From NCBI GenBank assembly GCA_023399455.1, contig JAEWPN010000033.1, forward strand, positions 1 through 26,748: a stretch of DNA of 26,748 bases, given 5' to 3'. A model generated the notes under the pieces. It made no database searches. It was not told the DNA's origin and worked only from the letters and a program-made list of their open reading frames with translations. The stretch is from Bacillota bacterium (GTDB taxonomy: Bacteria > Bacillota > Clostridia > Lachnospirales > Lachnospiraceae). Below are positions 2,390 to 25,403 of this stretch, piece by piece (within the stretch, counting starts at the first letter, position 1; every line of letters begins with the position of its first letter). The position numbers and the translations under genes are program-made.

Positions 2390-2421
2390 AAAGGACCTGT
2401 GCATTTTGCCGGGTCCTTTTG
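2390..2421 (+). terminator. Terminator after the MCP gene
   Basis: AAAGGACC (2390-2397) pairs with GGTCCTTT (2412-2419), extended by a T-G and a G-C pair, and ends in a short T-run. It starts 10 nt after the MCP stop codon. Confidence 0.8.
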
Positions 2422-2432
2422 ACAGAATACTG

Positions 2433-2461
2433 TTTGTTTATTCTGCATTTGTTGTTATAAT
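2433..2461 (+). promoter_or_regulatory. Candidate promoter of the ANT(6)-GNAT gene
   Basis: A perfect -10 box TATAAT (2456-2461) is preceded, with a 17-nt spacer, by a weak -35 TTTGTT (2433-2438). The predicted transcription start near 2467-2468 coincides with the first base of the inverted repeat 2467-2522, so the transcript would begin with that hairpin. Confidence 0.55.
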
Positions 2462-2466
2462 AAAAG

Positions 2467-2522
2467 TACCATCGTTTGACAAGGTCACGCACGGTCGGAT
2501 AAGACCTTGTCAAACGATGGTA
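2467..2522. repeat. Perfect 20-bp inverted repeat in the leader of the resistance-type gene
   Basis: The left arm 2467-2486 and the right arm 2503-2522 are exact reverse complements over 20 bp, with a 16-nt spacer (2487-2502). No T-run follows, so it is not a standard terminator for the + strand. It lies between the -10 box and the ribosome binding site of the 2577-3905 gene. It could be a 5' mRNA-protecting stem, a dimeric repressor operator or a remnant of a small mobile element; the sequence does not decide between these. Confidence 0.9.
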
Positions 2523-2576
2523 AAGCGGTCTCGGAAGACAAGAACGCAATTGCAGAAAAATTGGGGGAAGATATTC

Positions 2577-3905
2577 ATGAGAAGTGAAAAAGAAATGATG
2601 GACCTTATAATTGGAACGGCAGAAAGAGACGAACGCATCCGGGGAGTGTATATGAACGGCTCCAGAACAAACAAGAATGCGCCGAAAGATATATTTCAGG
2701 ATTACGACATCGTATATGTTGTAACGGAGACGAAATCTTTTATTGAAGAGGAAAACTGGATTGACGTGTTCGGAGAGCGGCTGTACATGCAATTTCCGGA
2801 GAAGATGAGCGGTATATTAGGACATGAGTGTGACTTCGAGAATTGTTATGGGTATCTGATGCAGCTTGCCGATGGCAACCGCTTAGACCTTCACCTTATG
2901 ACCATGGAATACAGTATAAAGGATATGGAGCGGGATAGGCTGTGTATCGTTCTTCTGGATAAGGATAAGTCATTTCCGCAGATTCCTCCTTCTACTGATG
3001 AGGATCACTGGGTAAAAAAGCCCACAGAGGAAGAATACTTATGCAGCTGCAACGAATTCTGGTGGTTGCTTAACAATATGGGAAAGGGTCTATGGCGTGG
3101 GGAGATAACCTATGCTATGGATATGCTGAATTTCCACGTCAGGCCGGAATTTATCAAAATGCTTTCGTGGTATGTAGGTATACATACTTATTTTTCCAGC
3201 AGTATAGGAAAATCAGGAAAGTGTCTTTACAGATTTTTATCTCAGGATAAGATGGAACGGATACTGCTCATGTATCCGGCGGGGAATCCGGAAGCCATAT
3301 GGCAGTCACTTTTTGAAATGTGTGACTTTTTTGATGCTCTGGCCAGGGAGGTCGGACGTGGGCTGGGGTATTCCTATAATGAAAGGGAAGCGCACAACAG
3401 CAGACTGTTTTTGGACTGCACCTATGAACTTCCCGGGGATGCCAGGGAAATATTGATGGTGCGAAGGATGAAAGAAAGTGACGTGGAGGAGATTGCCCGG
3501 ATATGGCTGGAGGCCAATATCGAAGCCCATGACTTCATTCCTGAGGACTACTGGCTGGGCAATTATGAAGCGGTTAAAAATCAGTTATACGAGTCGGAGG
3601 CTTACGTTTATGAGGATCATGAGGGTATTCATGGCTTTGCAGGGATAAACAAGGGCTATCTTGAAGGCATCTTCGTGAAACGTTCGATGCGTTCAAAGGG
3701 TGTGGGAAAGGCCCTTATGGATATATGCAAATCGAAATATTTCAGGATAAACCTTCATGTATATTGTAAGAACAAAAAGGCCGTTAATTTTTACATAAGG
3801 GAAGGCTTTCAGATAAACAAGAAGTATGCGGGGGCACGAACGGATGACATAAAACCGGACTTAGCCGGATGTACCGAATTCGAAATGATATGGCAGAAAG
3901 AATGA
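2577..3905 (+). CDS. ANT(6)-like aminoglycoside adenylyltransferase fused to a GNAT acetyltransferase
   Basis: The 442-residue product starts at ATG 2577, where a GGGGGA site and the ANT(6) N-terminus MRSEKEMMDLI begin; the open frame continues upstream to 2406, but that part is leader and hairpin. Residues 1 to about 290 match streptomycin 6-adenylyltransferases (AadE/ANT(6)) along their full usual length, with the nucleotidyltransferase signature GSR at 28-30 and the metal-binding pair in QDYDI (D42, D44). Residues about 293-442 form a GNAT domain (RRMKESDVEEIARIWLEAN) with the acetyl-CoA loop RSKGVGKA, resembling housekeeping YjaB-type acetyltransferases. The family chemistry would be AMP transfer to streptomycin, plus acetylation of an unknown amine. 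Each half seems intact. A lipoprotein gene follows after 13 nt and is probably co-transcribed. Resistance is inferred; many chromosomal ANT(6)-like proteins have no tested activity. Confidence 0.88.
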   Translation: MRSEKEMMDLIIGTAERDERIRGVYMNGSRTNKNAPKDIFQDYDIVYVVTETKSFIEEENWIDVFGERLYMQFPEKMSGILGHECDFENCYGYLMQLADGNRLDLHLMTMEYSIKDMERDRLCIVLLDKDKSFPQIPPSTDEDHWVKKPTEEEYLCSCNEFWWLLNNMGKGLWRGEITYAMDMLNFHVRPEFIKMLSWYVGIHTYFSSSIGKSGKCLYRFLSQDKMERILLMYPAGNPEAIWQSLFEMCDFFDALAREVGRGLGYSYNEREAHNSRLFLDCTYELPGDAREILMVRRMKESDVEEIARIWLEANIEAHDFIPEDYWLGNYEAVKNQLYESEAYVYEDHEGIHGFAGINKGYLEGIFVKRSMRSKGVGKALMDICKSKYFRINLHVYCKNKKAVNFYIREGFQINKKYAGARTDDIKPDLAGCTEFEMIWQKE

Positions 3906-4584: not shown

Positions 4585-4844
4585 AGGTGAGAGTCCTAGC
4601 GCAGCTGCGCGTGCGAAATAAAAGCTATGCTGCCGAAGTATTGGACCAAGAGAGTACGAATCACACTTTTGTTCCTGCATATTTCAATAAAACGTAAGAA
4701 AAGTGCACAAATCCAGGCAGGGCATAATAGGGTAAATAAGACAAAAGTGGAAAAAGACGCAAAAAAAGGTAGTAAAATCCTATTTTCAGGGTAAAATATA
4801 AGTAGGACACTATGAACATTTTATTGAAGAAAAGAAGGGATAGC

Positions 4845-5366
4845 ATGTTTGAGAAAGGAGAATACGTTGTATATGGAAATACGGGAGTGTGCAAGATTGA
4901 AGATATTACAACTCTCGATATGAAGGGCGTGTCGGAAAGCAGGCTGTACTATATATTAATTCCCCGCCATCAAAAGGAAAGCAAGATATTTACACCGGTG
5001 GACAGCGAAAAAACTGTCATGAGAGCGGTGCTGACAAAGGCGGAAGCGGATGCGCTAATCAATGCCATTCCCGACATCGAAGAGCTGTGGGTGGGCGATG
5101 ATAAACAAAGGGAAGAAAAATATAAGGAAACTATTCGCAGCGGTGAGTGCAGAGACTGGATAAGAGTTATAAAGACGTTGTATGTCCGCAAGCAGAGGAG
5201 AATTGCCCAGGGAAAGAAAACAACGGTAATGGATGAAAAATATTTGAGGATGGCAGAAGATAATCTGTATTCGGAGTTATCAGTTTCGCTGGCGATACCG
5301 AAGGAACAAATGCAGGAATATATTACTGATCGTATATTTGAGATGGACGTGCAGGAAAGTAAATAG
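4845..5366 (+). CDS. CarD-family transcriptional regulator
   Basis: The 173-residue product starts MFEKGEYVVYGNTGVCKIED, the typical opening of the CarD_CdnL/TRCF RNA-polymerase-interaction domain (about residues 1-60). A basic, helical C-terminal part follows (about 75-170). Family members bind the RNA polymerase beta subunit and alter open-complex stability at promoters. I chose ATG 4845 over the upstream ATG 4812, because AGAAGGGA lies just before it and the domain begins at once. It is monocistronic between the lipoprotein gene and a tRNA promoter. It is longer than the RNAP-interaction domain alone but matches the CarD layout of clostridia. The target genes are unknown. Confidence 0.88.
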   Translation: MFEKGEYVVYGNTGVCKIEDITTLDMKGVSESRLYYILIPRHQKESKIFTPVDSEKTVMRAVLTKAEADALINAIPDIEELWVGDDKQREEKYKETIRSGECRDWIRVIKTLYVRKQRRIAQGKKTTVMDEKYLRMAEDNLYSELSVSLAIPKEQMQEYITDRIFEMDVQESK

Positions 5367-6972: not shown

Positions 6973-7734
6973 CTACAGCCAAACAGCCCAATCACCGTAA
7001 TCAAAGGTGCCGCTTCCATGATGAAGCTTTCCGTCAGCTTTCAGTTGGAGAAAAGCGTCTCGCATACGGATCAGAATTTCGGGCTGAATGTCCAGGCTAT
7101 GATGAGCCGGAAATATGCTTTTCACAGGTAGAATAGCAATCTTTTCAAGTGACGTAAGATATGCCTGTGGATCGGTGGAAGGGTAATATGCAAACAGCGT
7201 GTCCTTGTAGACAAGATCGCCGGTAAATAAGTATCCATGCTGTGGTTCCCAAAAACATAGATGTCCTGGAGAGTGTCCCGGCGTATGCAATGCAGTAATC
7301 ACTCGTCCCCCTAGGTCAATGGTGTTACCGTCTTGCAGTACCCGTGTCGGCATTCCTTGAAAGAACTTATAAGTGTTGACATCATAGCCCTCCGGCAAAT
7401 CACAACGGTCTGTCACCATATCCCGGATGGTATCCATCGTCAGTGGGAACTCGCCGTTCAGCCAGTTTAATTCTGTTTCATGTGCATAGAAATCTGGGTA
7501 GTATTCGTGTCCGCCGATGTGATCCCAATGGATATGTGTTGCCACGGCGATTACCGGCTTGTCCGTCAGCTTTTTCACTTCTTCGGAAATATTACAGATG
7601 CCTAGGCCTGTGTCGATGAGTAAGCACCGCTCGTTACCTTCAAGCAGATAACAGTGCGTTTCCTCCCAATGACGGTATTCGCTGATTATGTGAGTATTTA
7701 TATCAATTTGATCAAGTGTAAACCAATTTTCCAT
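6973..7734 (-). CDS. Metallo-beta-lactamase-fold hydrolase
   Basis: The 253-residue product starts at the ATG complementary to 7732-7734, supported by an AAGGAGA site (7741-7750 on the + strand); the open frame continues upstream through pseudogene sequence. The zinc-binding signature THIHWDHIGG is present, followed by HTPGHSPGHLCF and the downstream GDLVYKD and FPAHH histidine/aspartate ligands, so the dinuclear metal site looks complete. The superfamily includes glyoxalase II, quorum-quenching lactonases and many unassigned hydrolases. Nothing here marks a beta-lactam hydrolase. It is a soluble single gene within a field of decayed genes and may have come with the integrated element. The substrate is unknown. 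Confidence 0.9.
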   Translation of the reverse strand: MENWFTLDQIDINTHIISEYRHWEETHCYLLEGNERCLLIDTGLGICNISEEVKKLTDKPVIAVATHIHWDHIGGHEYYPDFYAHETELNWLNGEFPLTMDTIRDMVTDRCDLPEGYDVNTYKFFQGMPTRVLQDGNTIDLGGRVITALHTPGHSPGHLCFWEPQHGYLFTGDLVYKDTLFAYYPSTDPQAYLTSLEKIAILPVKSIFPAHHSLDIQPEILIRMRDAFLQLKADGKLHHGSGTFDYGDWAVWL

Positions 7735-7787
7735 GTGAAATTCTCCTTCTTGAACAATAGAATCTCTGTTGTAATTATACCTTTTAG

Positions 7788-8042
7788 CTTGCGGCCATTC
7801 GTAAATGCATTGATAGCGAAGATTGGTATTGGTATACAATAACGGATAGAGGCAACAAGATAATGGGAGAAACCGGGGCTGCGAATGTTTCCGCAATGGC
7901 GCTTCACCGATTTTACCATTATCATCTCCGATCCGGCAGAGCAGGGAAAAGGGTATGTGACAGAGACAATTAATCTGATGTTTGATCGCGCTTTTATTCA
8001 ATGGAATTTTAACCGGATTTCTATTGGAGTAGTTGGCTTTCA
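7788..8042 (+). pseudogene. GNAT acetyltransferase (RimJ/RimL-like), truncated and frameshifted
   Basis: The plus strand first reads AIRKCIDSEDWYWYTITDRG and then a segment ending MGETG (about 7791-7877). About one base later, in another frame, it reads MFPQWRFTDFTIIISDPAEQ (from 7885) and then GKGYVTETINLMFDRAF with the acetyl-CoA loop QGKGYVTE. Together these make one GNAT domain interrupted by a single-base frameshift. There is no start codon or N-terminus, and the C-terminus stops at about 8042, where an oppositely oriented GNAT fragment begins. It is a gene remnant. Confidence 0.75.
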
Positions 8043-8394
8043 ATACCTTCCACTGCTGTCAAACCTACCTCTATTTTAGCACCGGGAATAGCGGTGTTCT
8101 CATATGCTCTATAAGTCTGTTTACAATGCTTTATCCGATTCCTATTCCTTGGTATTCGAGTAAAACAGTAATTCCCTGCAAAAACCAATACATGGCTCCG
8201 TCACTGACAAGCCGTCCCATCCCAACAACCTTGCCACTATATATTGCTGAAACATTAAACAATCCATTTCTAAGGGCTTGCCCGGCTTGTTGCAGGGATC
8301 TGTCCATAAATCCGGCTGCAACCTTTAACCGGACAAAATCGTCTGCTTTTAATGCATTATCACCTATTGTAAACGATTTTTCAGATATTGACAA
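8038..8394 (-). pseudogene. Second GNAT acetyltransferase remnant (in-frame stop and frameshift)
   Basis: The minus strand encodes DDFVRLKVAAGFMDRSL and, further on, VVGMGRLVSDGAMYWFLQG ... EYQGIGIG, a GNAT domain with its acetyl-CoA loop. A TAA at 8128-8130 then interrupts SIVNRLIEHM. After a further frameshift it reads AIPGAKIEVGLTAVEGIES, which ends at the junction near 8040 without the usual FYEKFGF tail. The 5' end runs toward the two-hairpin repeat at 8419-8491 without a convincing start or ribosome binding site. It is clearly nonfunctional. Confidence 0.75.
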
Positions 8395-8418
8395 GAAATA
8401 TGGGTATATGTTTTTTAG

Positions 8419-8491
8419 AGATGATTTCTGCTGCGCAGAGCGAATTAATATGCAGAAATCATACGTTGCTGAGAACGCAGTGAACAGTAAC
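8419..8491. repeat. Two-hairpin dispersed repeat, copy 1
   Basis: A 73-nt element with two stems. ATGATTTCTGC (8421-8431) pairs exactly with GCAGAAATCAT (8452-8462), and GTTGCTG (8465-8471) pairs with CAGTAAC (8485-8491). It aligns without gaps to 11750-11822, with 60 of 73 positions identical by eye, and the stems are kept in both. It is probably a REP/MITE-like palindromic repeat family. Confidence 0.85.
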
Positions 8492-8529
8492 AGGTGGAGC
8501 GAAATGTAATAAAAACAGAATCATAGTTA

Positions 8530-8580
8530 TTGACATATGTCTGAAATGGAGTATACTAAGCGTATAAGCGGCATATGCCG
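8530..8580 (+). promoter_or_regulatory. Promoter with two CATATG-centred palindromes (candidate operators)
   Basis: Consensus TTGACA (8530-8535), a 16-nt spacer and TATACT (8552-8557). The palindrome GACATATGTC (8532-8541) overlaps the -35, and CGGCATATGCCG (8569-8580) lies just after the start point. Both fit GRCATATGYC, and their centres are 38 bp apart. This arrangement suggests repression or autoregulation of the downstream DUF134-Mrp-NifX operon. Confidence 0.7.
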
Positions 8581-8812
8581 GAAACTGCAAGCTGATGAAA
8601 AATTTATCAGAAAGAAATGGTGCGGATCTGGGACTCGATATGTCCTGTCCGAGGATCATTGGATGCGGTTTGCGGCGCTTCTGTCAGCAAAGAATTGACA
8701 AAGGATAATCGGAGGGAAATTTTCAGCCACAGAAGCGTGGATTGAAAAACCGCTTGCAGACATTGGCAGGCTGCTGGAAAGTCTGTGATGTAAACGGAAA
8801 TGAGGTGAAATG
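8581..8812. other. Leader before the DUF134 gene, no convincing gene
   Basis: About 230 nt separate the promoter from the first clear start codon. A 37-codon frame (8595-8708, with GADLGLDMSCPRI) has no good ribosome binding site, and other frames show short gene-like tails such as WIEKPLADIGRLLESL. This may be decayed coding sequence or a long leader. I recognise no riboswitch. Confidence 0.4.
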
Positions 8813-9193
8813 ATGCCAAGACCAAGAAAATGGAGAAGGGTCTGCTGTCTCCCCGAAAGCAATCGGTTCGGTCCGTTGGATTTACATTCGGAGGACATTG
8901 TGAAGATGACGGTAGATGAGTTTGAGTCCATCCGACTGATTGATATGGACGGGTTTACCCAGGAACAGTGCGCGTCTCAGATGGATATTTCCCGTACCAC
9001 AGTGCAAGGTATCTATGACAGTGCCCGGAAGAAGCTGGCACAGTCGCTGGTAAACGGCAAGGTGCTCCTGATAGAAGGCGGCGAATACCGGCTTTGCGAC
9101 GGACAGGGGCGTGGCTGCGGCGGCACAGGATGCCTTAGACATCGGTGTGGCAGGCACTTTACGGATATGGAGAACGAAGGTGAAAGAGTATGA
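8813..9193 (+). CDS. DUF134 (UPF0251) family DNA-binding protein
   Basis: The 126-residue product begins MPRPRKWRRVCCLPESNRF, the hallmark of the DUF134 family. It continues with a sigma-factor-like helix-turn-helix at about 40-80 (DGFTQEQCASQMDISRTTVQ). The C-terminus is cysteine/histidine-rich (CDGQGRGCGGTGCLRHRC) and could bind a metal or iron-sulfur cluster. Start: ATG 8810 is too close to GAGGTG (8802-8807), so ATG 8813 is preferred. The stop codon overlaps the start of the ATPase gene by 4 nt (ATGA), so translation is coupled. DUF134 genes commonly neighbour NifX-like and P-loop ATPase genes. A role as metal- or redox-responsive regulator of this operon is an inference. Confidence 0.9.
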   Translation: MPRPRKWRRVCCLPESNRFGPLDLHSEDIVKMTVDEFESIRLIDMDGFTQEQCASQMDISRTTVQGIYDSARKKLAQSLVNGKVLLIEGGEYRLCDGQGRGCGGTGCLRHRCGRHFTDMENEGERV

Positions 9194-10053
9194 ACGAAAA
9201 ATGTGACAACAACTGCGGAAACTGCGGCGATGACTGCACTGACCGCAATGACGAAAAGTATGATTTTCGTGCTGTGCCCAATGAATTGAGCCATGTAAAA
9301 AAAGTAATCGGTATTGTTAGCGGAAAGGGCGGCGTCGGGAAATCCTCGGTCAGTGCCCTGCTGGCAGTCACCATGCAGCGGCTTGGATACCGGGTGGGTG
9401 TGCTGGACGCGGATGTGACGGGTCCGTCCATCCCCAAGGCCTTTGGACTCCACGGAAAAGCTGAGGGCAGCAAATTAGGGCTGTACCCCAAGCAGAGCAA
9501 GACCGGTATTGAGATTATGTCCGTCAATCTGCTTTTGGAAAACGATACCGACCCGGTAATCTGGCGCGGGCCGATTCTTGGTAATACGGTAAAGCAGTTC
9601 TGGACGGATGTGATTTGGGGCGATTTGGACTTTTTATTTATTGACATGCCGCCCGGAACCGGTGATGTTCCACTGACGGTTTTTCAGTCCATCCCCGTGG
9701 ATGGAATTATTATTGTCACTTCGCCACAGGAGCTGGTTTCCATGATTGTCTCCAAGGCACTGAAGATGGCAGAGATAATGAAAATTCCCGTGCTGGGACT
9801 GGTGGAGAACATGTCATATTTTAAGTGTCCGGACAATGGGAAGGACTACAAAATCTTTGGGGAGAGCCATATTGATGAGATTGCCGGAAAACACGGGATT
9901 GACGTTCTGGCGAAGCTGCCCATCGATCCCCAAATCTCGGCGGCCTGCGATGCAGGGATGATTGAGCTGTTTGACGGGAACTGGTTTGACACCGTTAGCG
10001 GACAAATGGCAGGACGATTATTTAAATTAAATGAATCGGAGGAAAAAATATGA
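9190..10053 (+). CDS. Mrp/NBP35-type P-loop ATPase (iron-sulfur carrier)
   Basis: The 287-residue product has a deviant Walker A motif GKGGVGKSSV (about residues 42-51), a DADVTGPSIP switch segment and LDFLFIDMPPGTGD. These define the Mrp/ApbC/NBP35 family, which carries and transfers iron-sulfur clusters in the cytosol. The N-terminus has four closely spaced cysteines (C5, C9, C12, C16), reminiscent of the NBP35 extension. The usual CxxC near residue 213 reads CPDN, so the second cysteine is replaced by asparagine. That may be a subfamily trait, with the N-terminal cysteines taking part in cluster binding. It overlaps both neighbours by 4 nt, indicating tight co-expression with the DUF134 regulator and the NifX-like protein. 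Confidence 0.93.
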   Translation: MNEKCDNNCGNCGDDCTDRNDEKYDFRAVPNELSHVKKVIGIVSGKGGVGKSSVSALLAVTMQRLGYRVGVLDADVTGPSIPKAFGLHGKAEGSKLGLYPKQSKTGIEIMSVNLLLENDTDPVIWRGPILGNTVKQFWTDVIWGDLDFLFIDMPPGTGDVPLTVFQSIPVDGIIIVTSPQELVSMIVSKALKMAEIMKIPVLGLVENMSYFKCPDNGKDYKIFGESHIDEIAGKHGIDVLAKLPIDPQISAACDAGMIELFDGNWFDTVSGQMAGRLFKLNESEEKI

Positions 10054-10421
10054 TGAGAATTGCGGTTGCAGCCGAAGGAGATAATGTAACGGAACATTTT
10101 GGACACTGTGTCAACTTTATGCTGTATGATGTTGAAAATTATAAGATCACGAAAGCAGAATCCGTGGATAATCCCGGCCACGAGCCCGGATTTCTGCCTA
10201 ATTTCCTTGCGGACAGGGGCGTGAAGGTTATTATCAGCGGCGGCATGGGTCAGGGAGCTGTGGATATTTTCAACCAGCGGGATGTCGAGGTCATCACCGG
10301 AGCGTCCGGCAACGCTAAGACAGCGGTGGAGTTTTACCTGAGGGGTGAGTTGATAACCACCGGCAGCGTCTGTCATGAGCATCAGCACCACAATGAGTGC
10401 GGTAGTATTTCTTCATTTTAA
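10050..10421 (+). CDS. NifX/NifB-C-terminal-like protein (dinitrogenase Fe-Mo cofactor family)
   Basis: The 123-residue product opens MMRIAVAAEGDNVTEHFGHC and includes GVKVIISGGMGQGAVDIF, the typical core of the Fe-Mo cofactor biosynthesis fold that binds metal-sulfur cofactors or their precursors. The C-terminus (CHEHQHHNECG) is an added histidine/cysteine tail likely to bind metal. GGAGG at 10038-10042 serves ATG 10050; ATG 10053 is an equally possible start. It is the last gene of the trio. No nitrogenase genes are present, so a general role in Fe-S or metal handling is more likely than nitrogen fixation. No clear terminator is visible in the 115 nt that follow. Confidence 0.9.
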   Translation: MMRIAVAAEGDNVTEHFGHCVNFMLYDVENYKITKAESVDNPGHEPGFLPNFLADRGVKVIISGGMGQGAVDIFNQRDVEVITGASGNAKTAVEFYLRGELITTGSVCHEHQHHNECGSISSF

Positions 10422-11865: not shown

Positions 11866-14800
11866 ATGAATCAGAAAGGTCGGACGAAAAGATTGCCGGG
11901 AGTTACCCTGGAAGAAGAAACAAAAATGCTTTCAGATATTATTGCTATTGCAGACGAGAATTTGAACCGGACAAAAGCAGTTGTTCAGAATCTGGCAGAT
12001 GAGCTGCATGAATTGAAGGAAGTATATGATGTGGAAGATAAAGAAGGTTTGGCGCTGTGGTTTAATACTGATGCCAGATTTCAGCAAGTCAGGCAGGAAC
12101 TGCTCCGCATGGAGCGCAGCAGGAAAAAGCCGTATTTTGGAAGAATTGATTTTAGGGATAGAAATCTGCTGAAGCAGGAGTGTTATTATATTGGGAAGTC
12201 TGCGATCAGCAAAGAAGCCGCAGATTTGATCGTCATTGACTGGAGAGCACCGATTGCATCGGTTTATTATGAGAAATCTCTCGGAGTATGTACATACTCC
12301 GTAAAAGGCGAAGGAGCATTTGAGATAGATCTTTCCAGAAAACGTACCTATGAAATAGAAAATGATAGACTGAAGGACTTTTTTGATTCTGATGTAGTGG
12401 CAAATGACGAGTTGCTGACGAAATACCTTGCCAGAAATAAGCGGGCCGTTTTAAGCGAGATAATCGCCACGATTCAGCAGGAACAAAATGAGATTATTCG
12501 TAAGAAGCCACAGCACAATGTTATTGTACAGGGCGGAGCCGGTTCTGGTAAAACAACAGTGGCGATGCATCGCATTTCTTATATACTGTATAATTACGAC
12601 TTGGAATTCAAACCAAAGGATTTCTACATTATTGGCAGTAACCGCATCCTCCTGAACTATATCACGGGTATTTTGCCGGACTTGGATGTTTACGGGGCTT
12701 CGCAGATGACGATGGAACAGCTTTTTATACGGCTTCTGTATGAGGACTGGGATGAACAGAAGTTTACGTTAAAGAGCCTGGACAAGGGAGACAAAACGGC
12801 CTGTGTAAAAGGCAGTTTTTCCTGGTTCCATGATTTAGAAGATTTTTGTGAGAGATATGAGTGGAATTATATTCCGCGGGAGGATATCTTCGCAGAAAAA
12901 ACCTGTCACCTGTTGATGAGCCGGGCCATGATTGAAAAGCTGCTTAAGGAGTTTCATTTTTTATCGCTTCCGGACAAACTGGATAAGCTGACCGAGCACC
13001 TTATGGCAAAAGTGGAAAATGAGATATATGGAAAATACCATACCTATCCGCTGGAAGAGCAGAAGGCGCTTCTTCGGTATTATCAGACATATTTTGGAAA
13101 AAGAGAGTGGAAGGGCTCTATTTTTGAATTGTACGGCGACTTTTTGCGTGAACAAAATGTGAAGAGAAACATGAATTTGTTATCCGGAACGGAGTTCGAT
13201 CTTTATGATTTGGCAGCACTTTCTTATTTGTACAAACGAATCAAGGAGACGGAGGTAATCCAGGAAGCAAGTCATGTTGTGATCGATGAGGCTCAGGATT
13301 TTGGTATGATGGTATATGGAGCGTTAAAATATTGCCTTAGTAAATGTACCTATACCATTATGGGCGATGTGTCTCAGAATATTTACTTCGATTACGGACT
13401 GACAGACTGGGAGGAATTAAGAAGTCTTATGCTTCCCGGAGAGTTTGATTATTTTGGGATCCTGAAGAAAAGTTACCGGAATACGGTGGAAATTTCGAAT
13501 TTTGCAATCAATATCCTGCAGCATGGAAACTTTCCCATATATCCGGTTGAGCCGATCATCCGGCACGGAAGTGAAGTTCGGACTACAAGATGTGAGGATG
13601 AGGGACAACTGGTTTTGGAGACTGTAGGCACGATTTTGCAATGGCAGGAAAAGGAATATGAAACAATTGCGGTTATTTGCAGAGATGAAGAGGAGGCGGT
13701 CAAAGTATCGGAAAAACTGAGGAAAAGAGTGGCGATTCGCGACTTTAATTCTGAAACGGAGGAGTTTGGGAGCGGTGTAATGGTTCTTCCGATAGAATAT
13801 GCCAAGGGATTGGAATTCGATGCCGTCCTTCTATTTAATGCGGACGATAAGAACTACCCGGCCGAAGATGGCTTTGCAAAACTGCTATATGTTGCAGCTA
13901 CGAGAGCGCTGCATGAAATGGTGGTACTTTATTCGGGAAGGCTGACGGATTTGATTGGAGCTCCGGTATCGGAAGAGAAGAAGCTGAAATACCTTAAGGA
14001 GCAGCCAAAACCCATTGCTCCGTCCCAATTCGAGAGTCAACCTAAGACCAAAAAGGAGCTGGAGTTGGAGCTGGCATTGGATGGGAAGCGCGAAATGGAA
14101 CTCCGTAACCGGATTGGCCCCAGAAGAATTGTGGTGCAGAATTCGGGAAACGAGAAGTCTTCTGAGAATATACAAGCAAAAGCCCCTGCGAGAATACGGC
14201 AGAAAGTCCGGGAGGAGTCCGAGAGCGGAGACATGGTAAGAAAAGCCGTCGTAAGAAAGGCAGCAATAGGAAGGACGGGGGTAGGAGAGTTCGGCGGGAT
14301 GCCGGGTACCACCAGCTTAAGACCGCCAGGTCATTCTAATATTAATTTGTCTGTACGATGGGTAACAGGTAATAAAAGCTATCTTGAGCTGACTAATGCC
14401 TGCGGAGTGCTTCGGCTTACGTCGATTACACAAGATACCATCCGGGTCAGCTTTGCGAGGGAGACGCTGGAAAAGCTTGCGGATATTCCGAAAGAAATTG
14501 TGACGCAGCCAAGCCCTGTCTGGAGTTTTAAGGAATTAAGGGACCGAGTGGAGCTGGCGACCGGAAAGCTGCACCTGTGTATAGATAAGAAAGCAGGTGC
14601 AATCTCTTTTTGCACGGCAAAAGAAAAGCAACTTCTTTCGGAAAGTATCCGGCTTCCGAGACAGATAGAGAAATTACCCGGGAATCAAACATGGACTTAT
14701 TTTAACTGGACCTCAAAAGAAATATTGAAAGCAAGAGGCGGATCCGACAATGAGTGGCTTGATCTCAAGGATACGGCAAGATATATTTCTTTCGGTGCAG

Positions 14801-14958
14801 AATCCGAAAGACCTGCCTGTATTATTTCGAACAACGGATATCAAATACTGATTCCGGCAGGCAGGCGGGTAATGTGCTGTACATTACCGGTGTATGGTTC
14901 TTATTTATACACAGAGGGTGAAAAACAGATAGATTATTTTTTCCGGACTGCATTATAA
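11866..14958 (+). CDS. HelD-type superfamily 1 helicase with a C-terminal GH31-N-terminal-like domain
   Basis: The 1030-residue product is preceded by GGAGG (11855-11859). Residues 1 to about 100 are a helical coiled-coil arm as in HelD, the motor that frees stalled RNA polymerase. The UvrD-like ATPase follows: Walker A GGAGSGKTTVAMHR (about 222-235), Walker B VVIDEAQDFG (about 470-479), GDVSQNIYFDYG, KKSYRNT, YAKGLEFDAV and LLYVAATRAL, so all helicase motifs are present up to about 690. A charged, low-complexity linker spans about 700-825. The last 205 residues match the N-terminal beta-sandwich of family 31 glycoside hydrolases: VLRLTSITQDTIRVSFA, then KLHLCIDKKAGAISF, YISFGAESERPACIISNNGY and a final QIDYFF. 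The protein ends where the catalytic barrel would begin. Standard HelD is about 690-780 residues long. The helicase is certain; the domain assignment is by pattern. Confidence 0.92.
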   Translation: MNQKGRTKRLPGVTLEEETKMLSDIIAIADENLNRTKAVVQNLADELHELKEVYDVEDKEGLALWFNTDARFQQVRQELLRMERSRKKPYFGRIDFRDRNLLKQECYYIGKSAISKEAADLIVIDWRAPIASVYYEKSLGVCTYSVKGEGAFEIDLSRKRTYEIENDRLKDFFDSDVVANDELLTKYLARNKRAVLSEIIATIQQEQNEIIRKKPQHNVIVQGGAGSGKTTVAMHRISYILYNYDLEFKPKDFYIIGSNRILLNYITGILPDLDVYGASQMTMEQLFIRLLYEDWDEQKFTLKSLDKGDKTACVKGSFSWFHDLEDFCERYEWNYIPREDIFAEKTCHLLMSRAMIEKLLKEFHFLSLPDKLDKLTEHLMAKVENEIYGKYHTYPLEEQKALLRYYQTYFGKREWKGSIFELYGDFLREQNVKRNMNLLSGTEFDLYDLAALSYLYKRIKETEVIQEASHVVIDEAQDFGMMVYGALKYCLSKCTYTIMGDVSQNIYFDYGLTDWEELRSLMLPGEFDYFGILKKSYRNTVEISNFAINILQHGNFPIYPVEPIIRHGSEVRTTRCEDEGQLVLETVGTILQWQEKEYETIAVICRDEEEAVKVSEKLRKRVAIRDFNSETEEFGSGVMVLPIEYAKGLEFDAVLLFNADDKNYPAEDGFAKLLYVAATRALHEMVVLYSGRLTDLIGAPVSEEKKLKYLKEQPKPIAPSQFESQPKTKKELELELALDGKREMELRNRIGPRRIVVQNSGNEKSSENIQAKAPARIRQKVREESESGDMVRKAVVRKAAIGRTGVGEFGGMPGTTSLRPPGHSNINLSVRWVTGNKSYLELTNACGVLRLTSITQDTIRVSFARETLEKLADIPKEIVTQPSPVWSFKELRDRVELATGKLHLCIDKKAGAISFCTAKEKQLLSESIRLPRQIEKLPGNQTWTYFNWTSKEILKARGGSDNEWLDLKDTARYISFGAESERPACIISNNGYQILIPAGRRVMCCTLPVYGSYLYTEGEKQIDYFFRTAL

Positions 14959-15085: not shown

Positions 15086-16039
15086 ATGGATAACAGTGTC
15101 TTTGATAAAGCGAGAAAATGGATTTGTTATAATGCCAGGCCGATAGACAGGGCAAGATTTCGGTATTTATTTGAAAATGGCAGCCGGGAAGCCGTATTGG
15201 CGGCCCTTATCGAATATCAAAATGATGATGGCGGATTCGGACATGCTTTGGAGGCGGATTCCTTTAACCCGTTTTCTTCACCGATACAAACCTGGGCGGC
15301 GACAGAAATACTGCATGAGATATGCCTTGAAGAGAATCATCCTATCACTCGGGGGATACTTAGGTACTTGGAAAGCGGCAAGGATTTTAATGGAAAATGC
15401 TGGCTTAATACAGTGCCATCAAATAATGATTATCCCCATGCGTCCTGGTGGATGTATGACAATCAATCCTATGATACGATTACCTATAATCCAACCGCTG
15501 CATTGGCAGGCTTTGCTCTGAGCTTTGCCGGTAAGGGTAGTAATATTTATAAAAAATGTTATGATATTGTTAAGGAAGCGATTGTTTATCTGAAAGAAGC
15601 GGATCAGTGCGATGAGATGCATATACTTGCCTGTTATGTGAGGATGACGCAGTATTGCCGTAAGGCGGGTCTTGCCGATGAACTGTCAATCGATGAAGTC
15701 GAGAAGATTTTACAGCAGAAGGTAAATAAAATTCTGACATGGAATAGGGACACATGGAGTGACTCTTATGTATGTAAGCCATCTCATTTCTTCATGGATA
15801 AGGAGTGTTTTCTGTATCATAGCTTCGGAGAGTTGGCGGATTATGAATGTAATTTCATAAAGAATAAGCAGAATACAGATGGAACATGGTCAATCAACTG
15901 GCAATGGGAAGAATATTTAGAGCAATGGCATATTGCAGAAAATTGGTGGAAAGCTCATCTGATCATAATGAACCTGAGGTTTTTACAGGGATTAAGCGAA
16001 GAAGCACGGGTAAAGGTTTCTGAGACAGGAAAAGAATAA
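15086..16039 (+). CDS. Alpha/alpha-toroid protein, prenyltransferase/squalene-cyclase-like repeats
   Basis: The 317-residue product has AAAGGAG (15066-15072) upstream. QW-like motifs occur near the N-terminus (EYQNDDGGFGHALEAD, about residues 43-58) and C-terminus (KNKQNTDGTWSINWQW, about 258-273), with helical pairs between them. This is the pattern of the terpene cyclase / protein prenyltransferase toroid superfamily. It lacks the DxDD catalytic motif of hopene cyclases, so enzyme activity is uncertain. No signal peptide is seen. It lies 127 nt after the helicase gene and 56 nt before the MFS gene. The superfamily is likely; the function is unknown. Confidence 0.75.
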   Translation: MDNSVFDKARKWICYNARPIDRARFRYLFENGSREAVLAALIEYQNDDGGFGHALEADSFNPFSSPIQTWAATEILHEICLEENHPITRGILRYLESGKDFNGKCWLNTVPSNNDYPHASWWMYDNQSYDTITYNPTAALAGFALSFAGKGSNIYKKCYDIVKEAIVYLKEADQCDEMHILACYVRMTQYCRKAGLADELSIDEVEKILQQKVNKILTWNRDTWSDSYVCKPSHFFMDKECFLYHSFGELADYECNFIKNKQNTDGTWSINWQWEEYLEQWHIAENWWKAHLIIMNLRFLQGLSEEARVKVSETGKE

Positions 16040-17959: not shown

Positions 17960-18991
17960 ATGCGAGCATTATTTATAGGAGGGACCGGCACGATCAGTAC
18001 GGCTATCTCGAGGCAGTTACTGGAGGAAGGACATGAGCTGTATTTGATAAACAGAGGAAACCGGGGCGGTGTACTGCCGGAAGGGGTGCATTCCATCATT
18101 GCGGATATCGCGGATGAGGAAAGGGTAGAAGAACTGCTTGGAGATATGAAATTCGATGTGGTAGCAGATTTCATCGCGTTTGAAAAGAGGCAGCTGGAAA
18201 GAGACTATAGGCTGTTCAAAGGAAGATGCTCCCAGTTCATTTACATCAGCTCGGCATCGGCCTATCAGAAGCCCTTGTCTGATTACCGTATTACGGAGGG
18301 AACACCTCTTTCCAATCCGTATTGGGAGTATTCCAGAAATAAAATAGAAGGGGAAGAATACCTTATGAAGCTGTATAGGGAGGAAGGCTTTCCAATTACG
18401 ATCGTAAGGCCCAGCCATACATATGATGAACGTTCCGTTCCGGTTGGTGCGCATGGGAATAAGGGTAGCTATCAGGTCATCAAGAGGATGATGGAAGGAA
18501 AACCGGTCATCATTCACGGAGATGGAACCTCTCTTTGGACTATGACTCATAACAGCGATTTTGCCAGAGGATTTATAGGACTTATGAATAATATCCACGC
18601 TATCGGTGAAGCGGTGCAGATTACAAGCGATGAAAGTCTCACCTGGAATCAGGCATATGAAGCCGTTGCCAAGGCTTTGGGCGTGCCGCTTATTGCTATA
18701 CATGTGTCATCGGAATTTCTGGATGCAAGCAGCGATGTATATGATTTCAAGGGCGGACTTATCGGAGATAAAGCGAATACGGTGGTATTCGATAATCAGA
18801 AGCTGAAACGTCTGGTTCCGGGCTTCACCGCAAAGGTGAGATACGATCAGGGAATCAGGCAGACGGTAGACTATATTTTATCGCATCCGGAATACCAGAG
18901 GGAGGATCCTGAATTCGATGCGTGGTGTGATGCGGTGGTGGATGCAATCACGGAAGCGGCTGAGAAGGTGAAAAGTGTGCTGAAGAAATAG
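17960..18991 (+). CDS. SDR-family NAD(P)-dependent epimerase/dehydratase-like protein
   Basis: Extended short-chain dehydrogenase of 343 residues. The N-terminal Rossmann fold has FIGGTGTIS (cofactor loop GGTGTIS, about residues 7-13) and an acidic DIAD turn. The catalytic serine region is ISSASAY, and YSRNK (YxxxK) follows near residues 129-133. These are the features of nucleotide-sugar epimerases and dehydratases. It differs from classical GalE in the cofactor loop (GTIS rather than GYIG) and in its C-terminal half. It heads the galactose cluster, and no galE is seen within the window, so a sugar-nucleotide or sugar-oxidising role is plausible but unproven. AAAGGAGG at 17945-17952 gives strong translation. 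The AraC-type gene follows after 34 nt. Confidence 0.87.
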   Translation: MRALFIGGTGTISTAISRQLLEEGHELYLINRGNRGGVLPEGVHSIIADIADEERVEELLGDMKFDVVADFIAFEKRQLERDYRLFKGRCSQFIYISSASAYQKPLSDYRITEGTPLSNPYWEYSRNKIEGEEYLMKLYREEGFPITIVRPSHTYDERSVPVGAHGNKGSYQVIKRMMEGKPVIIHGDGTSLWTMTHNSDFARGFIGLMNNIHAIGEAVQITSDESLTWNQAYEAVAKALGVPLIAIHVSSEFLDASSDVYDFKGGLIGDKANTVVFDNQKLKRLVPGFTAKVRYDQGIRQTVDYILSHPEYQREDPEFDAWCDAVVDAITEAAEKVKSVLKK

Positions 18992-19025
18992 CGTAAAGCT
19001 GTAATGGCGTGAGGAGCTTGGAAAG

Positions 19026-19928
19026 ATGGAAAAGGCTTATAAGTTGGAATTTGCGGGGGAAAAGACGGGGAGCTTGTATGTGAATTGCTGCGGCTGTTCG
19101 AAGACGGAGCCGCTTCATAGCTTTGGACCGGCTCTAAAGCCCCATTATTTGATTCATTATGTTTTGAGCGGTAAGGGCAAGCTCTCTATCGGAGAAACGG
19201 TTTATCCGCTGGAGGCGGGATACGGCTTCTTGATTACTCCGGAGGAACTTGCTTTTTATCAGTCGGATGAAGAAAACCCATGGACCTATGTGTGGGTCGG
19301 TTTCAGTGGAACCAATGCAGAGGAATACGTGAAGTCCGTCGGTTTATCCGTGACTCATCCGGTGTTTAAATCGGAGCGTTCCGATGAATTGTATCAGATC
19401 GTAAGGGATATGATGGAGCATAACACCTTTGGGATAGCTAATGACCTTCGAAGAAATGGACAGCTGGGAATTTTTCTCTCCATCATAGCCGAGGGCGTGC
19501 CGGTTACAGAAAGAAATGAAAGTGACAGGGCAAATATTTATGTGCGAAAAGCCGTAGAATTCATTCAGGGAAATTATTGCAATCCCATAAAAGTGACGGA
19601 TGTGGCGGATTATGTATGTATCAATAGGAGTTATTTATATACGCTTTTTCAAAATTCGCTGGGAATGTCGCCGCAGCGGTTTCTGACAACTTTCCGCATC
19701 GCCAAAGCGACGGAGCTTTTGCAGCTCACGACTCTTTCTGTGGAGAGCGTTGCTCTTTCCTGCGGATATCAGGATCCTATTGTATTTACGAAAGCATTTA
19801 GACAGATGAAGGAAATGTCTCCATCCGCTTACCGGAAGGATATAGCGAAAGGGGAAACAAGAAGAAACAAAGAACACTTGGAACAGGTGGAAAAATTTAT
19901 CGATCAAATCAATCAGATTAGAAGTTAA
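19026..19928 (+). CDS. AraC-family transcriptional regulator
   Basis: The 300-residue product has an N-terminal AraC-type cupin sensor (about 1-150, including GLLITPEE-like and WVGFSG segments) and a C-terminal pair of helix-turn-helix motifs at about 170-275: DVADYVCINRSYLYTLFQ, then GMSPQRFLTTFRIAKATELL and VALSCGYQDPIVFTKAFRQM. The layout is typical of MsmR/RafR-like sugar activators. GAGGAG at 19011-19016 precedes the ATG. It lies between the SDR gene and galK, all on the same strand, so control of the galactose genes in response to a sugar is the natural inference. The inducer is unknown. Confidence 0.93.
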   Translation: MEKAYKLEFAGEKTGSLYVNCCGCSKTEPLHSFGPALKPHYLIHYVLSGKGKLSIGETVYPLEAGYGFLITPEELAFYQSDEENPWTYVWVGFSGTNAEEYVKSVGLSVTHPVFKSERSDELYQIVRDMMEHNTFGIANDLRRNGQLGIFLSIIAEGVPVTERNESDRANIYVRKAVEFIQGNYCNPIKVTDVADYVCINRSYLYTLFQNSLGMSPQRFLTTFRIAKATELLQLTTLSVESVALSCGYQDPIVFTKAFRQMKEMSPSAYRKDIAKGETRRNKEHLEQVEKFIDQINQIRS

Positions 19929-19940
19929 ATAATTAACATT

Positions 19941-19968
19941 TTGACTGGTAATTGCAACAAAGTATCAT
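19941..19968 (+). promoter_or_regulatory. Candidate galKT promoter
   Basis: TTGACT (19941-19946), a 16-nt spacer and TATCAT (19963-19968). A second -10-like TATAAT lies at 19990-19995 without a good -35. It falls in the 121-nt gap between the AraC-type gene and galK. Confidence 0.5.
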
Positions 19969-20049
19969 GGAATTTATACGTCGGTTTATTATAATTTTAA
20001 GTAGAGAGATAGCTACGAGAAACTATGATTTTAACAGAAAGAGACGGGT

Positions 20050-21231
20050 ATGAGTGAGACTATGAAAGAAATGATGCTGAAAAAGTTTGAGGAAGTGTTC
20101 GGAAACAGCGCTCAGGCTAAGGTTTACTTTGCGCCGGGACGCGTTAACATGATAGGAGAGCATACGGATTACAACGCAGGACATGTTTTTCCGTGTGCGC
20201 TTACTATGGGTACTTATGGCGCAGCGAGAAAAAGAGATGACAAGAAGCTCCGCTTCTATTCCATGAACTTTGAATCGCTGGGAATAATCGAATCCGGTAT
20301 GGAGGATTTGAAGCCGGAGAAGGAAGCCGGCTGGACCAATTATCCGAAGGGAGTTATGTGGGCCTTTGAAAAGAAGGGATATGAGATTCCCTGCGGAATG
20401 GACTTACTCTTAAATGGGAATATACCTAACGGCTCAGGATTATCATCTTCTGCATCGGTGGAAGTTCTTACGGGTTATATACTGAGAGAATTTTATGGCT
20501 TCGATGTGAGCAATCAGGATTTGGCGTTGATCGGACAGTATTCCGAGAACAACTTCAACGGGGTTAACTGCGGTATTATGGATCAGTTCGCAATTGCCAT
20601 GGGCAAAAAGGGACATGCCATTTTCCTGGATACGGCGGACCTTTCCTTCGAATACGCGCCTATTAAGCTGGAGAATGCAAAGATTGTGATCGCATGCAGC
20701 AATAAAAAACGAGGTCTGGGCGATTCTAAATATAATGAAAGAAGAAATGAATGCGAAACGGCACTTGCGGAGATTCAAGCTGCGGTGGGAATCGATGGCT
20801 TGGGAGATTTAACCGAAGAGCAGTTCGAGCTTTATAAACCTATGATTAAGGATGAGGTTCGCATAAGGCGTGCAAGGCATGCGGTGTATGAGAATCAGAG
20901 AACGATAAAAGCAGTAGAGGCCTTGAAGAACAACGATGTGGAACTGTTCGGCAAGCTTATGAACGAATCGCATATATCCCTTCGGGATGATTATGAAGTG
21001 ACCGGTATCGAGTTGGATACGCTGGCAGAAGAAGCTTGGAAAATAGACGGATGCATTGGTTCCCGAATGACAGGCGCCGGTTTCGGCGGCTGTACGGTGA
21101 GCATTGTTAAGACGGAGGCTATTGATACCTTCATAGAAAAGGTTGGCGCTGCATACAAAGAGAAAATCGGATATGCTGCTGATTTTTATGCGGTGGAAAT
21201 CGGAGACGGCCCTTCTGAGATTTGCAATTAA
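20050..21231 (+). CDS. galK: Galactokinase
   Basis: ATP-dependent phosphorylation of alpha-galactose to galactose 1-phosphate, the first committed step of the Leloir pathway, in the cytosol. The 393-residue length is normal. All three GHMP-kinase signatures are present: PGRVNMIGEHTDYNAGH with the galactokinase-specific signature (about residues 29-45), the ATP loop PNGSGLSSSASVEV (about 125-138) and MTGAGFGGCTVSIV (about 338-351). The catalytic aspartate is in CGIMDQFAIAMG. Translation starts at ATG 20050 after an AAAGAGACGGG site. galT follows after 15 nt, so the two are co-transcribed. Confidence 0.98.
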   Translation: MSETMKEMMLKKFEEVFGNSAQAKVYFAPGRVNMIGEHTDYNAGHVFPCALTMGTYGAARKRDDKKLRFYSMNFESLGIIESGMEDLKPEKEAGWTNYPKGVMWAFEKKGYEIPCGMDLLLNGNIPNGSGLSSSASVEVLTGYILREFYGFDVSNQDLALIGQYSENNFNGVNCGIMDQFAIAMGKKGHAIFLDTADLSFEYAPIKLENAKIVIACSNKKRGLGDSKYNERRNECETALAEIQAAVGIDGLGDLTEEQFELYKPMIKDEVRIRRARHAVYENQRTIKAVEALKNNDVELFGKLMNESHISLRDDYEVTGIELDTLAEEAWKIDGCIGSRMTGAGFGGCTVSIVKTEAIDTFIEKVGAAYKEKIGYAADFYAVEIGDGPSEICN

Positions 21232-21246
21232 GAAGGGGCGGATGAG

Positions 21247-22755
21247 ATGATACTGCAAGATATTAAGAAATTGGTTCTGTATGGCCTTCATACGGGACTG
21301 ATTGAAGAAGAAGACAAAATATATACCATCAATAAATTGATTGAGCTTTTTGGACTAGACAGCCCGGAGGAATACGGCAGCAGTGCAGAAGCAGCAGAAG
21401 AGGATTTAGAAAGTATACTTAAGGACATGACGGACTACGCCTATGAAACCGGCATTTTGTCTGAGGATGGCATCGTATACAGAGATCTGTTCGATACGAA
21501 GATTATGGGAATGCTCGTACCCCGTCCCAGCGAAGTGATTCGCAGATTCAAGGAATTATATGCGATAAGTCCCAAAAAGGCGACAGATTTTTATTACCAA
21601 TTCAGTCAGGATACGGATTATATCAGAAGATATCGTATTAAGAAGGATCAGAAATGGCTTGCATCCACAAAGTATGGGGATTTGGATATTACTATCAACC
21701 TCTCCAAGCCTGAGAAAGACCCTAAGGCTATAGCGGCAGCCGGAAATGCCAGACCCAGCGGTTATCCGAAGTGCCTGCTTTGCAGGGAGAACGAGGGCTA
21801 TGCAGGACACGTAAACCATCCGGCAAGGCAGAACCACAGAGTGATGCCTGTAGAGATCAATGGCTCTCGGTGGGGCCTGCAATATTCCCCTTACGTATAT
21901 TATAACGAGCATTGTATCGTATTCAACTCGGTCCATGAGCCGATGAAGATTGATCATGCCACTTTTTGCAAGCTCTTTGATTTTGTAAAGCAGTTCCCGC
22001 ACTATTTTGTAGGTTCCAATGCCGACCTGCCTATTGTAGGAGGCTCCATTTTAAGCCATGATCATTTTCAGGGAGGCCATTATGAATTCGCCATGGCGAA
22101 GGCTCCCGTAGAGAGAACTTTTCAAGTGCATGGCTTTGAAGATGTGGAAGCGGGCATAGTGAACTGGCCCATGTCCGTAATCCGTATATCTTCTAAGGAC
22201 AGCGAACGCCTTATCTCACTTGCGGACATAATACTGGATAAATGGCGCGGCTACACCGACGAGAAGGCTTTTATCTATGCGTATACCGAGGAAGAACCGC
22301 ATAATACTATTACCCCTATCGCAAGGAAGCGCGGGGATAAATTTGAGCTGGATCTGGTGCTGCGAAACAATATTACAACAAAAGAACATCCCCTGGGTGT
22401 ATATCACCCCCACGCCAAGCTCCATCATATTAAAAAAGAGAACATCGGCCTGATCGAAGTAATGGGACTTGCCGTCCTCCCGGCCAGACTAAAGGATGAA
22501 ATGGATGCCTTGGCAAAGGCCATTTTAGCAGAAGAAGATATTCATATAGATGAAGTGCTCGGAAAGCATGCGGATTGGGTAGAAGAATTTCTTCCGAAAT
22601 ATGAAGCTGCGAGCCGTGACACGAAAGAGAAATTAATGAAAATATTTCAAAAGGAAATCGGAGACATATTTATGCAGGTACTTGAGGACGCCGGAGTTTA
22701 TAAGAGAACGCCGGAAGGCCGGCTTGCATTTGACAGATTTATCAGTACATTATAG
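21247..22755 (+). CDS. galT: UDP-glucose--hexose-1-phosphate uridylyltransferase, type 2
   Basis: Transfers UMP between UDP-glucose and galactose 1-phosphate (Leloir pathway, second step). The 502-residue length and the N-terminus MILQDIKKLVLYGLHTGLI mark the Firmicute GalT type 2 family rather than the shorter E. coli type. The active-site HxHxQ motif appears as SHDHFQGG near residue 270. Cysteines in CLLCRENEGY (about 178-187) may bind metal. AAGGGGCG sits about 7 nt before the start. It is the last gene of the galactose cluster and is followed by a strong terminator. Confidence 0.97.
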   Translation: MILQDIKKLVLYGLHTGLIEEEDKIYTINKLIELFGLDSPEEYGSSAEAAEEDLESILKDMTDYAYETGILSEDGIVYRDLFDTKIMGMLVPRPSEVIRRFKELYAISPKKATDFYYQFSQDTDYIRRYRIKKDQKWLASTKYGDLDITINLSKPEKDPKAIAAAGNARPSGYPKCLLCRENEGYAGHVNHPARQNHRVMPVEINGSRWGLQYSPYVYYNEHCIVFNSVHEPMKIDHATFCKLFDFVKQFPHYFVGSNADLPIVGGSILSHDHFQGGHYEFAMAKAPVERTFQVHGFEDVEAGIVNWPMSVIRISSKDSERLISLADIILDKWRGYTDEKAFIYAYTEEEPHNTITPIARKRGDKFELDLVLRNNITTKEHPLGVYHPHAKLHHIKKENIGLIEVMGLAVLPARLKDEMDALAKAILAEEDIHIDEVLGKHADWVEEFLPKYEAASRDTKEKLMKIFQKEIGDIFMQVLEDAGVYKRTPEGRLAFDRFISTL

Positions 22756-24743: not shown

Positions 24744-25403
24744 ATGACGAAAAAGACAAAGGAGATCATAGATCTGCTGGACGAAAGATACGGTACGGAA
24801 TACCGGTGCTTCCTGAATCATGAAAATGCGTGGCAGCTTCTGATCGCAACGATTTTAAGCGCTCAGTGCACGGATGCCAGAGTGAATGTGGTAACCCGGG
24901 ATTTATTCCGCAAATACCCCGGTGTGGAAGCTTTTGCGAAGGCGGAGCTTTCTGAGCTGGAAAAAGATATTCATTCCACCGGATTCTACCGCAATAAGGC
25001 CAAGAATATTATTGCCTGCTGCAAGGAGCTGATGGCAAGGTTTGACGGAGAAGTACCCCGCTCGCTGGAGGATCTCACTTCTCTTGCGGGAGTAGGGAGA
25101 AAGACGGCGAACGTTATCAGAGGAAATATTTACAACGAGCCGAGCATCGTGGTTGATACCCATGTAAAGCGGATTTCCAAAAAGCTGGGACTGACAAAGG
25201 AAGAGGATCCGTTAAAGGTAGAACTGGATTTGATGAAGGCTCTGCCAAAAGAGCATTGGATTCTCTGGAACATTCAGATTATTACCTTGGGACGGGAAAT
25301 ATGCAAGGCGCCCACACCAAAATGTGAGGAGTGTTTTTTGCAGGAGCAATGTGACGATTACCGGAAACGGAATAAGGATAGGAAAAAGAAGAATGATAAA
25401 TGA
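24744..25403 (+). CDS. nth: Endonuclease III (DNA glycosylase/AP lyase)
   Basis: Base-excision repair of oxidised pyrimidines. The 219-residue product carries the helix-hairpin-helix LAGVGRKTANVI (about 112-123) with the catalytic lysine in GRKTA and the catalytic aspartate in VVDTHVKRI (about 138). The C-terminal [4Fe-4S] loop is C-x6-C-x2-C-x5-C (CKAPTPKCEECFLQEQC). The length is normal, with a lysine-rich tail. The ATG follows the previous stop codon immediately, and its last 11 bases overlap the exonuclease gene. Confidence 0.97.
   Translation: MTKKTKEIIDLLDERYGTEYRCFLNHENAWQLLIATILSAQCTDARVNVVTRDLFRKYPGVEAFAKAELSELEKDIHSTGFYRNKAKNIIACCKELMARFDGEVPRSLEDLTSLAGVGRKTANVIRGNIYNEPSIVVDTHVKRISKKLGLTKEEDPLKVELDLMKALPKEHWILWNIQIITLGREICKAPTPKCEECFLQEQCDDYRKRNKDRKKKNDK

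Follow-up and report, generated by a model that had tools for sequence, protein, structure and literature searches.

What would a domain with the fold of a sugar enzyme be doing at the end of a motor that presumably recycles RNA polymerase (RNAP)? The question is raised by one gene in the window, the whole 26,748-nt stretch of DNA analysed here (positions 1 to 26,748, forward strand, of contig JAEWPN010000033.1, assembly GCA_023399455.1, from a Bacillota bacterium of the Lachnospiraceae). A first-pass annotation had read in it a single open frame carrying SF1 helicase motifs, a charged linker and a domain like the N-terminal beta-sandwich of GH31 glycosidases, and all three are found in one 1030-residue protein (Table 1); the stretch that it had assigned to the GH31-like domain, 14341-14958, covers nearly all of the tail as delimited here.

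Table 1. Features of the tailed HelD gene, in positions of the window
Feature	Position	Strand	Basis or remark
Whole gene: HelD motor, basic linker and GH31 N-domain-like tail	11866..14958	+	single open frame, 1030 aa
HelD-type motor core, residues 1-698	11866..13959	+	HelD_BACSU, 6wvk, tailless relatives
DWRAP motif of HelD, residues 125-129	12238..12252	+	invariant in 66/66 aligned proteins
Walker A, GGAGSGKT, from residue 223	12532..12555	+	K229 and T230 invariant in 66/66
Walker B / motif II, DEAQD, residues 474-478	13285..13299	+	invariant in 66/66
Charged, net basic linker, residues 699-814, 116 aa	13960..14307	+	pI 9.93, no W or C
Linker motif IGPRRI, residues 750-755	14113..14130	+	IGP[KR][KR][IV] pattern in the window's subgroup
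Junction motif F-G-x-x-P, residues 809-813	14290..14304	+	pattern count over 91 proteins
GH31 N-domain-like beta-sandwich, non-catalytic, residues 815-1030, 216 aa	14308..14955 + stop	+	profiles, predicted fold
Region aligned with the GH31 loop of G[LM]G[QE] and QxN; motifs absent	14722..14790	+	alignment, pattern counts
CCTLPVYGSY, the tail's most conserved stretch	14875..14904	+	C191, P194, Y196, G197 and Y199 invariant in 76/76

A HelD motor with a further domain

The SF1/HelD motifs can be placed: those of Table 1, among them DWRAP, which is described as a HelD motif in a part of the HelD-classes paper (PMC8655204), are joined by KGLEFD at residue 647 and YVAATRAL at residue 675, with motif VI in place. 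Against the NCBIfam model HelD_BACSU (NF041464) the core scores 348.6 bits (E 5.5e-104), which misses the curated naming cut-off of 419 bits, and the protein is thus filed as a member of the HelD family, not as that equivalog. B. subtilis HelD (6wvk) matches at E 2.1e-72, a second aligned stretch bringing window residue 698 onto residue 763 of the 774-residue chain, and 6yxu matches at E 3.6e-27; three tailless HelDs (L153-L155) end at the equivalent of window residue 697. By its SF1 motifs, DWRAP and core homology, the core is assigned to the HelD family as class I-like, and its job is presumably RNAP recycling, as for B. subtilis HelD. The two proteins have motor core and motifs in common (class I; PDB 6wvk, 6zca, 6zfb), but the B. 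subtilis protein ends, after 774 residues, with its 2A head, whereas the window protein continues for another 332 residues, first through a basic linker and then into a folded domain.

The linker, 79-280 residues long in 91 relatives, is the fastest-changing part at the protein level; its composition and length variation suggest that it is probably flexible. Two short motifs recur in it. IGP[KR][KR][IV] is found in 64 of the 70 proteins of the window's subgroup versus none of the 21 in the divergent subgroup, and FGxxP occurs at the junction with the tail in 89 of 91 proteins once printed misses are counted (the stricter FGxMP was found by script in 59). Both could be docking motifs.

Where does the tail come from?

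Taken as a single sequence, the window's tail has no Pfam or NCBIfam match, none to PF13802 even at E<=1, and phmmer matches nothing to it in the PDB; the GH31 domain is visible through family profiles and fold only. PF13802 is matched in 14 of 19 tails scanned singly (E<=1, best 4.6e-7), although the scores of the L012 and L087 tails, 21.0 and 17.9 bits, lie under the 27-bit cut-off. A profile of 19 tails matches 14 sequences of the PDB at E<=1, all but one of GH31 type (best 1.3e-9); a one-model hhalign comparison of the tail gives 99.8%, E 6.4e-28, over 213 columns; and structure prediction returns the GH31 N-domain fold (PF13802, galactose-mutarotase-like). Profile and predicted fold thus bear out the original identification, and the tail is almost certainly a homologue of the GH31 N-domain and a conserved working part of the protein. 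Automatic annotation has already met the domain, since some database tail pieces carry the name 'DUF4968 domain-containing protein'.

The nearest known relatives of the tail are the N-terminal domains (PF13802) of GH31 enzymes, such as the alpha-xylosidases 5jou, 7kmp and 5zn6 and an enzyme encoded in locus L131. Unlike these enzymes, which have a barrel and catalytic residues, the tails have neither and are attached at the C-terminus of a motor. The catalytic barrel, PF01055, begins at residue 266 of the L131 enzyme and is not matched in the window protein, which, judged by its sequence, is not a GH31 enzyme: barrel and catalytic acids are gone. How sharp is the cut? When 10 tails are aligned with the 4 GH31 enzymes nearest to them, divergent tails stop near ...AYAYLCGKL, aligned with ...GYRYLTGK of the enzyme, which continues with ASMLPKW, the opening of the barrel. 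The first-pass claim that the domain ends exactly before the missing barrel is therefore literally correct for divergent tails, but tails of the window's subgroup, its own included, finish some 20 residues earlier, at ...DYFFRTAL. All 10 aligned tails also lack a stretch of about 35 residues that the 4 nearest GH31s have as an insert.

The G[LM]G[QE] and QxN loops face the sugar in GH31s. Of 17 GH31 frames inspected, 16 carry G[LM]G[QE] and 14, reading the loops by eye, have the N of a QxN-type loop; both strict patterns are absent from all 91 tails. Column by column, Q or E follows the G in 0 of 76 tails, and at the QxN site Q appears in 3, N in 10 and both together in none. GH31 N-domains are not known to bind sugar by themselves. 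Across the 76 tails, with identity down to 32%, ten columns are invariant, and L4, P6, H9, Q119, K136, A157, S161, C191 and Y196 are conserved in tails and unseen in the 4 nearest GH31s.

Charge also sets the two apart, GH31 N-domains being mostly acidic and HelD tails basic. Over 91 proteins, the cores have a median pI of 5.22, the linkers of 9.70 and the tails of 9.31; 90 tails and 87 linkers have a pI of 7 or above, and in a second set all 76 tails exceed 7.5. The acidity of the core within the same protein means that the basic tail is not a matter of base composition alone. Nineteen GH31-like N-domains from related genomes have a median pI of 5.36, with 3 above 7, and values of 4.7-5.2 are found for the four that are closest to the tail. 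Eight tail positions (5, 11, 17, 21, 51, 75, 136 and 158) carry a basic residue in at least 86% of 76 tails. None of the four nearest GH31s has one at 51, 136 or 158, while one or two of them do at each of the other five, and position 136 has K in 71 of 76 tails versus an acid in those four. Conserved acidic positions are present in the tails too, and the window's tail is without a basic residue at 11, 21 and 136.

Distribution and history

Is the fusion peculiar to this genome? A protein search with the tail region (candidates restricted to 0.55-1.75 times the query length) returned 90 proteins, every one with UvrD-type helicase domains, and a scan of named genomes by tail peptide pattern confirmed 92 places, 80 of which were kept, with a HelD core preceding the tail in all 80; the HelD-plus-domain architecture thus recurs elsewhere in Lachnospiraceae. 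Core and tail share one frame in 79 of the 80 (L071 is cut by the contig start), and in L034 the frame breaks just before the tail. Carriers include Hungatella effluvii, Acetatifactor muris and Clostridium sp. chh4-2, and the tailed HelD P0005 is from Kineothrix alysoides.

Genome samples of widening scope outline the range. At family level, a close HelD (E<=1e-80) is present in 41 of 250 genomes; the tail is matched at E<=1e-30 in 18 of these and unmatched in 23. Sixteen of the 18 have frames of 1011-1145 aa; in G189 the frame is broken, and in G088 core and tail lie on separate contigs. The order sample has 8 matches among 295 genomes (E<=1e-20), of which five are frames of 1016-1080 aa, all in Lachnospiraceae, the window's family, and the remaining three are GH31-enzyme-like frames of 788-800 aa in other families. 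The single match among the 398 genomes of the phylum sample is G001 itself, and the tail is unmatched in 72,556 plasmid records. Closer to the window, 9 of the 16 genomes of the genus group (G001-G016) have the HelD core and 8 the tail, the ninth core (G007) running into a contig end; in each of the nine a single HelD locus was found (E<=1e-30), and the tailed form is the only HelD seen there.

Profile matches at E<=0.01 in 61 relatives are either HelD frames or frames of 495-841 aa; one of the latter, that of L131, was checked with Pfam and is a complete GH31 enzyme. The tail profile also matches 110 short proteins, many of which sit on short contigs and are therefore probably pieces, though some may be free-standing tails. 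P0111 is probably the broken-off tail of L152, and P0195 and P0196 (21% identity, with PF13802) are probably fragments of GH31 enzymes. The frame is broken between motor and tail in two relatives, L152 (in G189; 2919-3887) and L034 (7980-8702). The intact protein P0061 has a tail identical to that of the broken L152.

A maximum-likelihood tree was built by a quick method (LG+G4) from 100 HelD cores, with L071 omitted for its length and L034 and L152 labelled as tailed by hand since their tails lie in another frame. One branch (SH-aLRT 99) splits the 91 tailed from the 9 tailless rows, so that 1 change suffices, with long branches among the outgroup and some tailed rows. On this tree, in which losses are under-sampled because carriers were fetched by their tail, the tail was gained once, within Lachnospiraceae. 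Core and tail distances correlate closely over the 91 rows (Mantel r 0.934, versus at most 0.125 in 999 permutations), which argues that the domain has been inherited with its motor, and the tail evolves faster than the motor (median distance ratio 1.46).

Nei-Gojobori dN/dS in nine pairs served to gauge selection. Five of the pairs have a tail dS below 1, and in these dN/dS is 0.009-0.067 for the core, 0.13-0.41 for the linker and 0.196-0.231 for the tail; four wider, partly saturated pairs give 0.067-0.173 for the tail. Where tail and linker values are both defined, the tail is lower in 5 of 7 pairs and higher in the other 2. The tail is under purifying selection and less constrained than the motor. 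Together with the conserved architecture in relatives, this upholds the first-pass judgement of a functional module; its other suggestion, a captured gene fragment, is correct as to origin and wrong if a decaying relic is meant.

Genes around the motor

In a survey of 100 loci, many of them cut by contig ends, the window's neighbours recur only at that of the near-identical G001 (L162); L166 has just the NifX-like gene in common with the window. The commonest neighbour family, read as ABC transporters, occurs at 20 loci, and an operon partner of the tailed HelD was found at none of the 100. The window has a set of galactose genes on the + strand at 17960-22755, encoding a galE-like epimerase, an AraC-type regulator, a galactokinase (galK) and a galactose-1-phosphate uridylyltransferase (galT). 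A link between the tailed HelD and a sugar operon was considered and rejected, gal neighbours being seen in G001 alone among the 100 loci.

Other features of the window are recorded for their own sake. Directly after the HelD gene, 15086-16039 (+) encodes a protein of 317 aa that is without a match in Pfam at E<=1. A CarD-like protein (PF02559), another RNAP-binding type, is encoded at 4812-5366 (+), 6.5 kb from the HelD gene, in a neighbourhood shared with G001 only. The stretch 6973-10421 holds genes for a metallo-beta-lactamase-fold protein, a DUF134 protein, a Mrp/ParA-type ATPase and NifX-like proteins, where the matching stretch of G001 (L162) has a second cupin instead; it is a strain-variable block. 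A 499-aa frame at 2406-3902 (+), a possible fusion, joins a streptomycin adenylyltransferase (PF04439, E 7.6e-111) to a GNAT acetyltransferase domain. At 22932-26088 (+), a gene for a radical-SAM/B12 DUF4080 protein is closely followed by one for an HhH-GPD repair glycosylase, which overlaps an RNase T-type exonuclease frame.

What might the tail do?

On the reading that we favour, a HelD-type recycling motor acquired the N-terminal beta-sandwich of a GH31 glycosidase once, in Lachnospiraceae, the captured piece being attached after the 2A domain and ending just short of the start of the catalytic barrel. The tail has lost the GH31 loop motifs, retained the fold and turned basic; hanging on a basic, probably flexible linker, it would be a tethered accessory hand acting from the head of HelD. 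Such a hand may grip nucleic acid stripped from RNAP, or an acidic surface of RNAP, and its grip would raise the affinity of HelD or aid release while HelD opens the clamp. In B. subtilis, according to parts of one report (PMC7749167), the HelD head lies on the downstream side of RNAP and the clamp arm turns a positive patch towards downstream DNA. A basic domain that a basic linker tethers behind the 2A head would be in a good position to capture DNA or RNA as they are displaced, or to keep hold of an acidic RNAP surface. The intact motor motifs, and the one HelD locus per genome in nine genomes of the genus group, fit an accessory hand; on the other side, 3 of 19 GH31 N-domains are basic as well, one tail and four linkers of the 91 fall below pI 7, the tail is dispensed with in 23 of the 41 related genomes that have a close HelD, the basic positions are not all new, and the tails also keep acidic ones. 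We consider a hand that grips nucleic acid or the polymerase plausible, with a chance somewhat short of even.

Could the tail take the place of the delta subunit? Delta and HelD act jointly, delta augmenting recycling by HelD (in a part of PMC8655204), and the unstructured C-terminal domain of delta is negatively charged (in a part of PMC7749167). Like the tail in its proposed role, delta (RpoE of Bacilli) is accessory to HelD recycling; unlike it, delta is a separate, unrelated subunit. Among 31 chosen genomes, the HARE-HTH domain of delta is missing from 20 of the 21 with tailed and 9 of the 10 with tailless HelD (it was found in the B. subtilis control). A trade-off between tail and delta was rejected on these counts: as delta is mostly missing with or without the tail, the tail is not a simple stand-in for it. 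The broader proposal, that a GH31 N-domain turned nucleic-acid- or polymerase-binding would be a built-in stripping helper for HelD in mostly delta-less bacteria, strikes us as rather doubtful.

The residues conserved in tails alone, and the F-G-x-x-P motif at the junction, resemble an interaction surface and would suit a protein partner equally well, and beta-sandwiches are often protein-binding. The tail may thus dock a partner other than RNAP (the ribosome, the replisome or another factor) or pack on the motor to regulate it, with nucleic acid uninvolved. Yet no conserved neighbour gene presents itself as the partner, the commonest family being found at a fifth of the loci (20 of 100), and docking by itself leaves the basic linker and tail unexplained; we think this unlikely, if far from negligible. 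A carbohydrate- or ligand-sensing role, which the first-pass annotation had put forward and in which a cytosolic sugar or sugar phosphate would gate RNAP recycling, draws on a fold derived from sugar enzymes, on gal genes 3-8 kb downstream in the window and on invariant residues that hint at some conserved site. However, the loop patterns are gone by either count (0/91 and 0/76), the domain is basic, and the gal genes adjoin the HelD gene in near-identical G001 alone; the sensor idea is left without positive support, and we regard it as improbable.

Why not suppose that the tail does nothing, a captured fragment drifting behind a motor that alone matters? Tailless close HelDs exist (in 23 of the 41 genomes), the frame breaks near the tail in two loci (L034 and L152), and the tail changes faster than the motor. 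A drifting fragment would be hard to square, however, with a single gain and not one loss over the 91 tailed rows (losses being under-sampled), with tail dN/dS of 0.067-0.231 in all nine pairs, with ten invariant columns in 76 tails, or with the survival in intact P0061 of the very tail that is cut off in L152. This explanation is strongly disfavoured, and we give it hardly any credence.

A non-catalytic enzyme domain with a possible part in RNAP recycling

Published differences among HelDs are explained by the sizes of the arms, the core helicase domains being similar in size, and lengths of up to 872 aa are given in the main text of the HelD-classes paper, from which the terms 'C-terminal', 'extension' and 'glycos' are absent (PMC8655204). 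A search of the open-access literature for HelD together with glycoside hydrolases, GH31 or domain fusions gave no report of this architecture, and there was nothing on a reused dead glycosidase domain or on the GH31 N-loop. The tailed protein is apparently an undescribed, conserved form of HelD in which a non-catalytic GH31 domain has been reused.

It offers a clean example of the reuse of an enzyme domain without its active site, in which the origin, the single capture, the boundary and the change of charge can all be read from sequence. An extra folded domain, selected across many Lachnospiraceae genera, is a new candidate element of RNAP recycling; if the tethered accessory hand is its true role, a GH31 domain would be at work in transcription.
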